Positions 48,618 to 58,200 of a stretch of 64,000 nt of DNA are shown here, in pieces. Source of the DNA: Cokeromyces recurvatus (lineage: Eukaryota; Mucoromycota; Mucoromycetes; Mucorales; Mucoraceae). The DNA is taken from positions 372,001 to 436,000 of the forward strand of contig NW_026251395.1 of the NCBI RefSeq assembly GCF_025118155.1, read 5' to 3'. Under the pieces are notes generated by a model, which made no database searches, was not told the origin of the DNA, and saw only the letters and a program-made list of their open reading frames with translations. Position 1 is the stretch's first letter. Every line of letters begins with the position of its first letter. The position numbers were made by a program, and so were the translations under genes.

Positions 48618-49415
48618 TTATTTCACGATACTAACAGTAAGTTCACTACTATTATTGCCAGAAGTCTCAAAATTATTACTCGTTAATCCTTCTAATTTTT
48701 GATATACAAATCGTAGTATTGCCTGATCATCTGCTTCAGGTTTAATTTGAATTTCTATTGTTCCTACACATTTACCATAAGTTATTTGCCAACAATGAGT
48801 ATGATTTACATGAATAATATTAGGATCTTGTAGAATCTACAATGACAGATAAGTCTCAAAAGTGTAAAATTGTTTTTTTTTAATATTTTACTTCTCGAAG
48901 TCTATTCTCCACGCCATTTTGAACTGCAATAGGTGTTGTTTGTAATAAGATTTTTGCTAATGCTTTAGCGGTAGGATATCCTAAATAAAACATGACCACT
49001 GATTCAAACAATGCTAACATTTTATCAAAAAAAGGGGTAGCAGCACCAAACATATAAAATAGTAAGATTACTGATCCACATAATGCAATTGAAGATGAAT
49101 AAATGTTTGATAATAGAACATGAATAGGATTTCCTCTTGCTCTATTGATTACACTATATACAATTCCATGTACGATTGTTGGTCTTTTTCTCAAGTCTTT
49201 TGTATGTATATTGATGTTAATACATCTAATATTACATATCTACTTGGATCCTATTTTACTTACAACGTACAAAATTATCATGATTTCCTAATGTTATACT
49301 TGAAAGACATGTTGCCGTTATTGCAAATCCCATCAAAAGAAACATGCCTAAAGTAAGCTTTGTATGATGTCTATAAATAATAATTTTTGCATGTAAATTC
49401 TTCAATCTATTTATG

Positions 49416-50522: not shown

Positions 50523-50595
50523 TGTAGAACAAAGCTTCAAGCGTGTTCTACAGTTTTTACACTTCAAATCCAGACAATGTTAGTTTTTTTCTGGA
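50523..50595. other. Two short hairpins between the Fanzor-like pseudogene and the transporter
   Basis: TGTAGAACA (50523-50531) and TGTTCTACA (50544-50552) are a perfect 9-bp inverted repeat with a 12-nt loop. TCCAGA (50569-50574) and TCTGGA (50590-50595) form a second 6-bp stem. They lie just 3' of the decayed nuclease gene, where TnpB/Fanzor elements place their guide RNA and right end, but also within the transporter promoter. Either reading is open. Confidence 0.3.
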
Positions 50596-50671
50596 CGAAT
50601 CAAAATTAATTTTCAAACGTCTAGCTTAAGTTCAAAGTAAAAATTTAAATTTGGCTTTACCTGTAAGATCA

Positions 50672-53391
50672 TTAAGTCGATACCCCACCGAGATGGAACG
50701 TGACAGCCACATTCGAGGTGGCGCTTTGTCTTTTGAAGACATTGGGACGATCATTTCCGCTCCAGTTTGATGTAGCAATGGTTAACATATTCTTTGCAGC
50801 CATCATATCTCGATTTCAATAAATATAGCATCATCTCCCTTTCCACATGCGAAGTTTTGAAGCTTGGTTTCAAGACAGGAATTGCATGTCTATACAGTAC
50901 AGGTGCAATATATTGCATTAGTACGCTTATTATATTCACATGTATGTATTTTTTACCTTGGATGTTTTGTATTCGTCTATGTCTAGAAGCAACAATTCCC
51001 CAAGCTTTTCTCGTATTTTCAGCTGCCTGTATATCTTTTCTGATATACCATGCTTTAGCCCTTTAAATTTTACCTGGCTTTTGTTTTTAAGTCCATTGCC
51101 AAATACAACTAACGGCATCTTGCGGTGGTCGCCCTCCTCAAACTTCTCCTTGTGTTCTCTTTCAAAAAAAAAAAAAAAAAAAAGGTTATGAATAACAAGA
51201 ATACAAAGTATTCATGAATATGTCTTCTTTTTCTCTTATTTCTTTTTGTCTTTACTCTTCTTTTTTTTTGTTGTATTTTTTTAAGCCGTTAATAAGAATG
51301 CTGACAGCATTTTCAACTGCGTGCTGAGAACCGACATAATTAAGCCAGTTAATTCTAGCAGTTTCAAAACTGTAAAAATCGAACAGAACTTCCATATGCT
51401 GTAGCATATAGGTGATGTACATTTTATAATGATCTATGGACATGGTTTTCGATGAAGGAATTTGTGTTTCAACAGACTCTACATTGGATCTTCTTTTGCT
51501 CTCTATTTCCATTTTTTGTCGATATACATTTCCACTCATGTCATAGTATTTGGCTGAAGACAAACACCTTATGACTGTATTCCCATGATAAAAGACGAAT
51601 GCATCTTTTCTATTTGGGCCTACAGCACAAGGTCTAAAATATCTATTTATTTCTTCACTGGTAAAATCGTGCAGTTCCAAAGAAGTCTTGCTTATACTAG
51701 GCGATGTTGCCTGTGTTTTTCTACAGAATGATATCCTACATGTATATCCGTTTGTATACATGCTATTTAAAAATCATCTTTCTTTTTCGATGAGGCAAAT
51801 CTATTAAATCTTCAAGACTACTCAAATTCAAAATTAGTGTGCTTATTTCTCGTAAACAATGTTAACACTTGACTGTTAATGTTTAATTTCGAAAAATCAA
51901 AGTAGGCAAAGAAACATCTTCGTATCTGTTGAAAAGGAGTTTCTTCATCTTGTTTCTCCAAAAAAAGCCCAAGGAAATATGCCACCTAAATTTTGGTTAT
52001 CGATCTTTGTAAAACGCCAACGAAAACTTGGTTCTGGAAACAAACTAAAGAGCCTGGGTGGAACGAACTTCTTTTCATTGTCTTTGCTTGTCTTTTTATT
52101 CTTCTTAACCTTCTTCTATTTTTGGTCTTTTTCTATTTGGTGGATTTGTCTGCTCTGAATGTTCTAGTAAACCAGGCTGTGGTTGTAGGTTTTCTTCAAT
52201 TAAGGCTTCGTATTTAACCAGAATATACCTTAATGCTGGTATTATACCAGAAGGTGCTTTATTGAGAGTTTCTTTTGTCATCGGAAACGAAGGTAATCTG
52301 TTTCTAATTTCCAAAATCAATAGTTTTAAGAGAGCACGGATGTTGCCTTGGGCTTCTTCATTTAATGAAAAAGCAATATTGCCATCCATAGCTGGTTGTA
52401 CCTCATGAGAAAGCACCGCATTTGAGACACGTTTGAATACTATATATTTATAATGGATATCTTCACCCCCTTTTGATAAAAAAATGTCAATATTTGTAGT
52501 GGTGTGCAGTGCTAATTTTCTAAAAAAAAATTTCTCATGGGAAATTTTGCACGCACCATATATATGAAGTAATTTGCTATAAAAGTTTGAAAGTATTCTA
52601 TGTAGTAGTTGTTGTAACATGTAGCCAAAGCCTCGCAGGCACTTGAAAACACTTGACCATAATTGGTCAGACCATTTCTTTTCACTATCAAGTCAACACC
52701 TTCAATGCCGGCAAGTTCTATCCACGTATCTGAAAAAAAAAACCGGAATTTGAGGATACTTTGATGAGAGCTGCTCGTTAGATATATTTTCGTTCGCCAC
52801 TCTACAGATAGAGTACCAAAAGTTTTGTTCAAAAAATAAATTCGATAAGTTGTTTGGATGTCTTAGTATATAGAAATTAACGAAAAACTGGGCATTGAAG
52901 ACAACTTTTCGTAAAAACATTGATAGAATCTTGTTTTTTTAAGAGCTTCTTCGTAGACATTTTGATTTGCTGCAGACACAAAGGATTTCAGCGGTAGAGA
53001 AACAGTGTATCTTTGATAATTAAATCCAAGATTTCTGTTCAGTAACTCTTTTAATGTAAAGTTATGGTTTGGGCATTCTTTAGTCCTTGCTGAAGAATGA
53101 CCAATATTGTCGCAAGATTTACACGTTAAGTTTTGATTGTTTGAAGAAGTAGAGCTTCTTGCCCTTTTTTCATTTGCTTTATCTTTCTTTTCTTTATAAG
53201 TATTCTTTCTTTTGACACCTTTTAATAGTTTGAGTTAGTTTGTTTTATCAAACAATATAGTTTATATTACCCCTTTTCATAAATTGTTTGTTTGCGTTAT
53301 CATTAACAGCTCCTGCTTGTATGCTTTCATACTTGTGCTGTTTCTTAGCCTGTATAAAAGCTTCAACATTAGCATAAATGGGTGTACGCAT
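50672..53391 (-). pseudogene. Decayed Fanzor/TnpB-like RNA-guided-nuclease-type transposon gene
   Basis: Exon 1 starts MRTPIYANVEAFIQAKKQHK (53391); a short intron leads to a basic segment and a CX2CX4HX7C knuckle (LTCKSCDNIGHSSARTKEC), then FWYSICRV, NYGQVFSSACEALATCYNNY, LALHTTTNIDIF, PSGIIPALRYILVKYEA and LFSLFPEPSFRWRF. The RuvC-I site reads RPCAVGPNRKDAF (Gly codon 51620-51618), where relatives I remember have Asp. MPLVVFGNGLKNKS and EYKTSKV follow, and the RuvC-III end is NRDMMAAKNML (Asp codon 50809-50807). Damage: frame changes near 52930, 52740 and 52530, all at homopolymers; in-frame stops further on, including one two codons before the RuvC-III RD (50818-50816); and the zinc-ribbon cysteines are not readable. 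Homopolymer shifts might be sequence errors, but the substitutions are not. Assigned from motif memory, without a search. Confidence 0.65.
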
Positions 53392-54059
53392 GTTGTTTAA
53401 AATAAAAAGAAAGAAAGAACAAGATTTGTGGACAAACCAGGCATACAAAAGTATTGGCTTGCTAACTGGTATTTCACAAGTCTCGAATATATTAATTCAA
53501 TATATCACGTCTACACACTAGCCTCCCAAAGTGTTTTATTTTTATTATTCATCAATATTTACATTCAGTTACAGGGCAGTATCTATTGTCTTTTGTATTG
53601 GATCTTTTCATACTTTAATATGATTGTATTGCCTCACTTTATTATTGCAGGTAGATCAATCATTTAAATTAGGTTGATTTTATCACAGTTTTCCTTTATA
53701 AACGGCATTTATTCCAACATATATATTACAATAGATAGCATGATTGTAGGTCGCCATACTCTAAGGGGAAAAAAAGAACAAGGTTTTTCCTATGTATAAG
53801 TTGTTATACACGCTGCTCATTTTGATCCCCCCTTTTTTTTCAGAATTGAGCAGAATTGCTTCCGCTTTCATTAAACAATAGAAACTTTGTTGGCCAACTA
53901 AAAGTTCTATACAAATGAATTTTGAATTTCATTCTTAGATCGCGTAGTGCTATAGTGGTACAAGTGCTAGAGAAGCTGACTATCTTTAAGAATCCCACCC
54001 CCAAATCGAAAAAAATCCACATATTTTCTCAGTAGTAAATCAGTTTCCCATTGTACAGA
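53392..54059. other. Spacer between two transposon remnants
   Basis: Upstream side of the Fanzor-like pseudogene. No intact ORF; no clear terminal repeat or target duplication could be matched to the other side. It probably contains the element's left end and pre-insertion DNA. Confidence 0.4.
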
Positions 54060-54763
54060 ATGCTGCACCTAGTACAACAACCTTCAATGATGACCTGAGC
54101 TACTATTCTGCAAGCTAAATGCCTTATTCGATCAATGCAAATACCCAACGATACATTACTGAACAAACTTCTACCTCATCTTTAAATGTCTAGCAGCCAT
54201 TCTCAATGGTATAAACTAACAGTCAACCCACTCTGGAGAGAATCTGCCCCTATCTTGGACGAACTTGATAGAAAGATTTTCAAACGGCTCTGTCTGCGTT
54301 TTCAAAAAACTCAATAAGAACACCTCCGTCAGGGCTTAAATTCCAAGCTTATTCGTGCATGTCATTCTAATATGATCATCGATCCAATTCTTTGGCTGCC
54401 CATGACAAATACGGAAAGAAGTCAAGTCCTCCGCTGGCGCCTCGGTTGGATACCTGGCGGTATATCTCGTCCATGTCCCTACCATCCTTCTCAAACGTTC
54501 AGTCGTACTCATTCTATTGAGTGTCTACATATGCACCATCGACTCCAAATGCCAAGAACGGTCACCGACCCACTCTGCTTCCTGCTAAACCAACTACTGA
54601 CTAAAAAGCTAAAATGCTCACAGGATATGGCTCATTGGACAATCCGTTGGCCAGTTATTTGTATCATCCTACATGAAATGAATTATCTCTTTCATGAAAG
54701 GCTACCTCCAGATCCTCCCTCAGAACCTGGTTTACTATTGGTGAAATGGTTATTCAACTAACA
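54060..54763 (+). mobile_element. 3' fragment of a non-LTR (LINE-type) retrotransposon
   Basis: An open stretch (54372-54761) encodes WLPMTNTERSQVLRWRLGWI, PGGISRPCPYHPSQTFSRTH, ECLHMHHRLQMP and WTIRWPVICIILHEMNYLFH. This Cys/His-bearing tail is the C-terminal end of the reverse-transcriptase polyprotein that I associate with Mucorales LINEs. From about 54060 the same protein can be followed upstream (TLWRESAPILDELDRKIF, RLCLRFQ) only with stops and frame changes. The reverse transcriptase core and endonuclease are missing, so it is a dead fragment. Base composition is clearly more GC-rich than the flanks. Confidence 0.75.
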
Positions 54764-55241
54764 GTGCTAATACCCTGAATTTTATCTTACTGATCTTTTT
54801 TTTTTTTCCAATTACTTTATTTCTGTCTAACTCATCATATTTATTTTATCCTTTTACACATATACTTTTATTCTTTTCCCTTTTGTCTCATAAGAGTGGT
54901 TTTTCTTACTTATATACTATTAGAACTGACTAGGGGCAATACAGCAGATGAAAAATGCTATATGCTCATTCGGTCAAAAAAACACAAAAACGCAACTATT
55001 TGCTGAATTTTAAAACACGGCAAAACAAAAATATAAAAATATCATCTTCTACAATCTTTTTTTTTTCACTATCTTTTTCCTTGAAAAAAAAAGTAGCAAT
55101 AGACTTGTTATTATTATACTTATTTGTAATAAAACCCTTTATTTCTTAATCTCTTTGTGGTTTTATTTTATTTTCCTTTTTTTTTTCTTTTTTTTTTTTT
55201 TTTTTTTTTTGCGTGGTTAACAATCATTTTTACTCCACGCC
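54764..55241. promoter_or_regulatory. Promoter region of DIP2/Cmr2
   Basis: No exon seen. A T-rich block ends in a run of about 26 T with few breaks (55185-55210), some 30 bp before the ATG on the sense strand, as in several other promoters of this window. Confidence 0.4.
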
Positions 55242-58200
55242 ATGTCAAAGTTTTCGTACGACGATCTTCCATGGGAGGTCGCAAGCCAGCTACAATGTCT
55301 TGACCTTGAATTGGAAGAAGGTGACATTACTCAAAAGGGATATGAAAAAAAGAGGAATCAAATACTTGCTACTTACCAAGATGTAATTGAAGAGACTAGC
55401 CAGTCATTGAATTCACCTTTACTAAAGAAGTCTTCATCATCAATAAAGAATGAAATTCAAGTCAACGATACTGAACAAGAAAACAGCAATACAGCTGATG
55501 CATTTCTTGACCTTGGACCTGAACCAAGTGCAGCTGATGTTACAGATTTTTTAGATTTCCTTCCATCGCCGACTCATTCACCCGTTAACCATGATAATAA
55601 AGGTGCCGCTTTAATGATGGAAAATCATAAAAATTTTGTACAAAATAAGCATAATGATGAAACAATAAGTAATAATCAACCTTCTGTTCCTTATTCACAG
55701 CCACTACCGCCACCACCACCACCACCACCACCGCCTTCCCATATTTTGGCAAATCATGCGCCAATGAATAATATTCAACCATCTCGACCCTATGCACCAA
55801 TAAATAATTACAGACCCGCACAAAACTATATGAATAGACCTGCTTTTGATCCTCGTATGGGCAACTTTCGTCCTATGTATGGAAATGCATATCCTTCTGG
55901 ACGTCCTCCTATACGACCCACTCCACCTCTTCTTCCATCTTCTAACACTCAAATGAATCCTATGTATCGCCCTCAACAATCTCAAAATGGCTATGGTTAT
56001 CGACCTCCTTCTATTAGTCTACATAGTGGCGGCCCTTCTACACCAACGCATCTTCTTCCTTCATTTTCACAACAGCATAGCAGATCACCATCAATGGACT
56101 CAAAATATGATCACTCCGCATTCAATATGGGCTACAGTCAAAATAACACGCGGCAAAAATCAGACTTAGTAACAGAGCCAGAATATGTAGGGGATTGGGG
56201 TATATCTTTGTTTAATACTAATATTTGTAATACCACTATTAACTGTTTTGTATAACGTATTATAGAAACATCATCTATTTCACGAAAATCAAATACTGGA
56301 AGGGAACCATCTATTATATCAGCATCAGGTGGTCAAATACGCCATTCAATGTCAGCAAATAGTGCAGTGTCCTCTATAGATTCAGCATCTATGCCTATAT
56401 CTGTTTTCCGTTCCCTATCAAATTCAAGTATGGGACGTAGTCGATATAGAAATAGCTATATGGCAACCTCCTTTAAGGCAATTGAGCCCGCTCCGCAGCC
56501 TCGATTAAAATTGAATGACCCTATAGATCAAATATTCTTGTCTGATTTAGCCGGACGTCAAATGACACCCCTTAAGGGCCGTCCTATCTCTTTTGAATTA
56601 TATAATGCTGATAATAAGACCATTTTAACAGACTTTAAAAACCTTGCAGAGATACTAAGGTTTAGAGCAACAAAGAGCAAAAACAAAGCAGATAATGCAT
56701 TTTTGCTTGTGGATTCGCGTGGAAAGGAGCCTGTGATGTTAAGTTGGGAAAAATTAAATGCTCGTGCGGAAAAGATAGCCCAAACTTTACGTAATAGCAG
56801 TAATATGAAAACTGGAGACCGAGTTGCCCTGATTTATAGAAGATCTGAAATTCTTGAATTTATTCCAGCCCTATTTGCATGTTTTTTAGCTGGCATTGTA
56901 GCTGTACCTATCAATGCTGCAGAGGACTTGTCTGAGCTTTCATTTATCTTAGCAGTGGCCAATATTCATTTAATTTTAACAACTGAGCATAATCATCGTG
57001 CATTTACAAAGGATATGCAAACAAAATCGATTGATCTACCCTTTAATGTTAATTGGTGGAAAACAAATGACATGGGAACTTGGTATCCTCCTAAGAATTC
57101 TTCCGATTATCCTCCTATTCATACTCCCGAAGCCGCCTATATTGAGTATGCTAAAGCAAGTAATGGAGAATTAAAGGGTGTCATGATATCACATGCTTCA
57201 ATTATGGAGCAATGTGCTGCTTTCCAAGCTGCTACAACGGAAACAATCGTAAACACAACATCCAATGGTAATGTTGAAGTAAAACCAAATAGGAACGGCC
57301 ATCCGTCTGAAGTCGTTGTAAGCTACTTTGAACCAAGACAACAAATTGGATTGGTTCTTTCTGTACTACAATCTATCTATTCAGGCAATACAACTATATT
57401 TTGTAATGGATCTATAGTCGACACTCCAGCTATCTGGATATATGTGATTTCAAAATATAAAGGTAACTAAATGAAATATATATATATATATATATATTAT
57501 ATGATGTGAATAAAGATAACATGAATATGTGTTTTTTTTTATAGCTACTATGGCATTAGCAGATTATATGTCTATGAAACAAATTACGAACTATTTTCAG
57601 TCTAATACCAAAGAGGTCAAGCTCCATAGCAAAAAAGTGACACCCGATCTTTCAGCACTTCGCTATTTAATTATAGATACAAGCACGATTCAACCTGAAC
57701 TTAATCAGTACATTGCAGATAAACTTCTTCGTCCATTAGGTAATACAGATAATCCCCTAGAAGTTGTGTGTCCTATTCTATCTTTACCTGAACATGGTGG
57801 TAAAATTCTTAGTATGAGGGACAATCTGGGGCCTGTAGTTATGGAAGAACACATTGAAAGAGAGGAAGAGATTACGACAGAGGATGGACAACAGATGACA
57901 CGTCCGATAATGACTACACAGTCTGTATTAGCTCCGGGGGGATCTCGTGATATATTTACCTGTCTATTCGATGCGAATGCATTAAGAATGAATAAAGTGT
58001 TAGTTGTTGCAGCTGGAGCAGAGGCCAAGAAAGCAGAAAATTTAAATGAGCGGGAAAGAGTTCGGGTAGAATCATTCGGTTTTTGTATGCCCAAAGCTAC
58101 TGTTGCGATTGTTGATCCTGAAACAGGCACCCTCTGCCCACCAGATACGTTTGGTGAAGTCTGGGTTGATTCACCCTCTATTGCGGGTAGTTTTTGGGCC

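Follow-up and report, generated by a model that had tools for sequence, protein, structure and literature searches.

Does a Fanzor-like gene that lacks the first catalytic aspartate of its nuclease, and that carries an additional zinc knuckle ahead of it, stand for a particular kind of protein or for the remains of a known one? Such a gene lies on the minus strand of a 64,000-nucleotide stretch of DNA (hereafter the window) from the mucoralean fungus Cokeromyces recurvatus (C64:372001-436000 in a genome of 28 Mb and 64 contigs). In the translation of that strand, it starts with ATGCGTACACCC at 53391, and its TAA ends at 50672. The locus is very probably a defunct copy, truncated at its 5' end, of a DNA transposon of the Tc1/mariner type that carries Fanzor1. 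The broken copy belongs to a kind of element already known; its relatives reveal a mucoralean Fanzor1 architecture with a knuckle, which is a modest novelty. The initial annotation had proposed a fossil nuclease with an added finger, and its coordinates for the gene, the Gly codon, the NRDMMAAKNML motif and the knuckle were all correct on re-reading.

That the locus is the fossil of a eukaryotic RNA-guided nuclease lineage, as the annotation had it, and more precisely of Fanzor1, is supported by sequence, by signature residues and by the fold of a relative. In the Protein Data Bank (PDB), the RuvC-I block (51773-51252) matches the Spizellomyces punctatus Fanzor SpuFz (8gkh, E=0.0028). Fanzors carry an alternative Glu six residues ahead of the first CxxC (PMC10711439), and the same arrangement is found here in DEYKTSKTCNSC, read across intron 4. 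The RD of RuvC-III is provided by NRDMMAAKNML, present as annotated, though downstream of a stop. Of the C4 zinc ribbon, the second CxxC is deleted in the window copy and present in paralogs such as L012; PF07282 scored above its cut-off in four of the seven homologues scanned (P0001, P0002, P0004, P0006). The complete-looking relative P0017 shows the Fanzor fold by model comparison, the shared core beginning at model residue 69-71, equivalent to residue 18 of SpuFz, 2 of GtFz and 103 of PpFz. The likeness to Fanzor1 proteins (SpuFz1 of Spizellomyces, PpFz1 of Parasitella, GtFz1 of Guillardia) hence lies in the RuvC-I Asp of the relatives, the alternative Glu, the NRD motif and the fold of P0017. 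Its genomic copies, like the SpuFz match, show that this resemblance goes beyond chance: 51 DNA matches to the locus, itself counted, lie in the same genome, and the RuvC-I piece has at least 134 protein-level matches (best 150 of 156 candidates), several of which can come from one genomic copy.

The transposon is recognised by its ends. The 80-bp terminal inverted repeat is met at no fewer than 40 places in the genome, the window copy counted, and the copies outside the window are 81-95% alike. Among 39 ends printed, two pairs of which have an identical flank, 31 are then followed by TA and 24 read exactly ACTG (counted by eye); the others show CA, TG, TT or a truncated end. CAGT...ACTG inverted repeats with TA flanks occur in relatives that keep both ends (L010 and L099, the latter complete at 3.4 kb and flanked by TA at either end), the window having the right end only. 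The same repeat also adjoins Fanzor RuvC-I matches only 29-35% identical to that of the window, on contigs C9, C12, C16, C18, C25, C27, C28 and C56, with both repeat ends listed for C9, C12, C18 and C25. Diverged Fanzor genes therefore share one type of shell. Further repeats in the list lie away from any listed Fanzor match and may represent elements that lack a Fanzor (ghost elements). The flanks of C18:85345-85470 and C27:313543-313663 are nearly identical, which probably reflects the duplication of a single insertion together with the DNA around it. From what is known of Fanzor biology, intact members would make an RNA-guided endonuclease, with a guide derived from sequence beside the right end, and would depend on a transposase provided in trans. 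The sequence directly after the stop codon, ACAGGTAA, looks like a splice donor or a piece of a guide RNA; it and the increased conservation of third positions where the reading frame ends hint at a functional RNA there, short of proof.

Several observations weigh against this account. The window's own pieces showed no OrfB or TNB domain in the Pfam scan, and the family assignment of this copy depends on its relatives and on one weak PDB match. In the nuclease half, the AlphaFold model is of low quality (mean pLDDT 55.7), and it offers no basis to judge the knuckle. A TA duplication cannot be shown for the window copy, because its left terminal repeat is absent. No linked transposase was found: among the matches listed (at least 184 for DDE_3, best 150 of 403 candidates, the repeat counts being lower bounds as well), no DDE_3 lies less than 5 kb from a listed repeat, as judged by eye, the nearest being at 5.0 kb on C56. 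Finally, folding brought out no convincing guide-RNA structure: in five of five elements, shuffled sequences fold as well as the terminal 76 nt do, and RNAalifold of 24 copies gave only -1.7 kcal/mol, yet no column shuffle reached that value.

The knuckle was found in an open frame ahead of the nuclease part, where it had been annotated, and the added finger is supported as a recurring part of this mucoralean clade, in paralogs, in homologues and in L099. Ten of the 60 homologues examined (P0005, P0006, P0012, P0016, P0017, P0027, P0029, P0033, P0034, P0042) have CX2CX4HX7C within their first 120 residues, and their hosts include Mucor, Rhizopus, Backusella, Thamnidium and Mycotypha. Among the other 50, several are gene models without the knuckle region (e.g., P0002, P0004, P0011), P0001 and P0051 have the first part of the motif only, and the distant records P0059 and P0060 have no knuckle. 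In the same genome, paralogs with an intact knuckle include L009, L013, L014, L017, L035 and L039, and two knuckles, CTDCEEVGHFNKNYYKC and CKKCCGDNHSTTRSPLC, stand in L099, which comes from a diverged family. All four ligands are invariant in the ten aligned N-termini, which is built in because all ten were picked for the motif; the near-invariance of the non-ligand residues S36, G41, R46, S47 and N52 (first-row numbering) and the Lys/Arg-rich leader are not. Seven of the ten knuckle stretches match zf-CCHC_6 and zf-CCHC at E<=1 (best 9.2e-5 and 0.038, respectively), which is the likeness to these families. The spacing from His to Cys is 7 in the Fanzor knuckle, longer than in the retroviral zinc knuckle, where it is 4. 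The knuckle is most likely an extra zinc-binding finger that would contact nucleic acid, carried by a flexible basic leader that precedes the Fanzor core, and it may help to hold the guide RNA or the element DNA.

This leader with its knuckle sets the family of the window apart from SpuFz1, PpFz1 and GtFz1: the knuckle profile matched no Fanzor chain, PpFz included, at E<=10. In SpuFz and GtFz, since the core that follows the knuckle starts so early, there seems to be little or no room for one; PpFz, which is mucoralean, has about 100 residues ahead of its core. In a literature search of limited coverage, no paper joined Fanzor with a zinc knuckle or CCHC, and one joined it with Mucorales. The terms "knuckle" and "CCHC" are absent from the available part of Bao and Jurka 2013 (PMC3627910), as are "knuckle" and "zinc" from the Cell 2024 Fanzor structure paper; in the accessible portion of the Nature 2023 Fanzor paper, "zinc" is used twice, for a finger in the NUC domain only.

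We propose, tentatively and at a little under an even chance, that the proteins of a large mucoralean Fanzor1 clade have a basic N-terminal leader before the known Fanzor core and on it one functional zinc knuckle or two, as an added nucleic-acid-binding module that would handle guide RNA or element ends, and that its diverged knuckle Fanzors share one Tc1/mariner-like shell moved in trans. A relic or a chance pattern of cysteines without function is the less probable explanation, though one with some substance, for the knuckle is decayed in L010, L012, L016, P0053 and P0054, and the piece from the window scores 15.5 bits, below the curated Pfam cut-off of 22. Such a relic would hardly be expected to keep identical spacing in the ten homologues, of at least five host genera, to occur twice in the L099 family, and to conserve the non-ligand residues named above.

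The weight that the initial annotation had placed on the lost aspartate is not supported. Within the open stretch of the RuvC-I block, RPCAVGPNRKDAF contains AVGPNRKD, which aligns to VIDPNKRD of SpuFz and thereby puts Gly at the catalytic position, as had been annotated. Here the relatives differ: the close paralogs L009, L010 and L011 read CAVDPNRKDAF, and Asp is present in 30 of the 35 genomic loci with a letter at this column (86%; 37 loci examined). Some of the five departures reflect a frame break at this position instead of a substitution. L040 and L049 carry Asn. Among 20 further short genomic stretches, in which L097 repeats L057, 19 have Asp and one has Gly (L087, C7:363280-363400). 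Similarly, 46 of the 49 homologues with a readable RuvC-I motif (60 examined) have Asp, the others being P0010 of Rhizopus microsporus (Gly), P0014 of Rhizopus (Asn) and P0021 of Gilbertella (Asn). The Gly is thus decay of the window copy and not the mark of a lineage using other catalytic residues, and the locus is a decayed descendant rather than a working Fanzor; the Asp-to-Gly change is neither unique nor a trait of the lineage. As for intact relatives with both Asp and knuckle, the complete-looking P0017 and the host paralogs L009 and L017 have the two, but a fully intact host copy was not demonstrated.

A nuclease-dead Fanzor retained by the host as an RNA-guided binder, the loss of Asp being selected, would have an analogue in the bacterial TnpB-derived repressors, and the losses just listed in L087, L040, L049, Rhizopus and Gilbertella speak for it. 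It is nevertheless very improbable: the Asp column is kept about as often as its neighbours C (86%), R (88%) and P (89%), with twelve other columns of the block at 91-100%, and the broken frame of the window copy, with its many breaks, its in-frame stop and the lost half of its zinc ribbon, disfavours retention.

The decayed transposon copy is also evident from its lesions. Four frame changes coincide with intron-like GT/GC..AG stretches, two of whose donors are altered in the window copy, the boundaries having been inferred by comparison with L009 and with annotated relatives. The remaining ones include several indels, to which are added an in-frame TGA (50818-50816, directly before NRDMMAAKNML) and a 37-nt deletion (71 nt from CNSC to NRD, versus 108 in L012). 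The annotation's three frame changes at homopolymers are thus an incomplete account, given the four intron-like stretches and the further indels; the deletion had gone unnoticed. The window copy cannot encode a complete Fanzor, and most likely it makes no active nuclease. That an intact gene is hidden by assembly errors in homopolymers, as several breaks in T or A runs might suggest, is highly unlikely, since neither the stop ahead of NRD nor the Gly codon nor the 37-nt deletion is an error of this type, and the lesions differ among paralogs.

Table 1. Features of the decayed Fanzor1 element, in window coordinates.
Feature	Position	Strand	Basis
Conserved non-coding 5' region of the element; beyond 54058 the copy no longer resembles its relatives, and it lacks the left repeat	53913..54058	-	comparison
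Fanzor1 gene in decay, from ATG to TAA, interrupted by introns and several frame breaks	50672..53391	-	sequence and relatives
First exon (MRTPIYANVEAF...), similar in annotated mucoralean relatives	53271..53391	-	comparison
Intron 1 (GTAATA...TTAAAAG)	53219..53270	-	boundary inferred from relatives
N-terminal zinc-knuckle motif CX2CX4HX7C, CKSCDNIGHSSARTKEC	53073..53123	-	open frame
Remnant of intron 2, with a donor changed from that of L009 (93% copy)	52470..52538	-	inferred
Remnant of intron 3; the donor, GC in L009, is changed in the window copy	51818..51872	-	inferred
RuvC-I block, matches Spizellomyces punctatus Fanzor	51252..51773	-	PDB search
GGC (Gly) in place of the catalytic RuvC-I Asp	51618..51620	-	alignment to SpuFz and relatives
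RuvC-II motif DEYKTSK, Glu six residues ahead of CxxC (Fanzor Ealt signature)	50957..50977	-	sequence
Intron 4, between TSK and TCNSC	50890..50956	-	inferred
C-terminal zinc ribbon remnant, lacking 37 nt relative to paralog L012 and with them the second CxxC; ends in in-frame TGA	50816..50886	-	comparison
RuvC-III NRDMMAAKNML	50783..50815	-	sequence
ACAGGTAA directly after the stop codon, exact in 17 of 24 non-redundant copies	50657..50664	-	counted by eye
Right terminal inverted repeat, ends ACTG, then TA flank	50549..50628	-	comparison with copies

Around the element, the open frame at 54318-54761 (plus strand) has no Pfam match, and we take it to resemble the C-terminus of a LINE-like reverse transcriptase protein; part of it also lies inside L026, and a similar stretch (by eye) stands beside the element end in L064. 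The neighbouring host genes are represented by a cation-efflux-like stretch at 48880-49239 (minus strand; 24.8 bits versus a Pfam cut-off of 26.6) and by a DMAP1-binding-domain protein at 55221-56255 (plus strand).

Mariner-type elements with Fanzor1 only and TA duplications, PUl-4 among others, are already described in the part of Bao and Jurka 2013 (PMC3627910) available to us. The window element is like them in its Fanzor-only cargo, its terminal inverted repeats and its TA flanks, and differs by its mucoralean host and by having a terminal repeat that is also found beside Fanzors 29-35% identical in the RuvC-I block. The same part of that source reports Fanzor1 elements in Mucor, Rhizopus and Phycomyces, of which ROr-4, PBl-3 and MCi-4 are MuDr-like with 9-bp duplications, not TA elements, and MCi-2 is unclassified; as described there, these share with the window element the order Mucorales and the Fanzor1 type, and its TA flanks distinguish it from ROr-4, PBl-3 and MCi-4.

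In itself, the broken copy is of little weight. Its relatives show that there are mucoralean Fanzors with an N-terminal module that the two non-mucoralean Fanzors of solved structure appear unable to accommodate. If this module binds RNA or DNA, it would bear on the way in which Fanzors locate their guide and on the persistence of so many elements, with no transposase in sight, in one 28-Mb genome.
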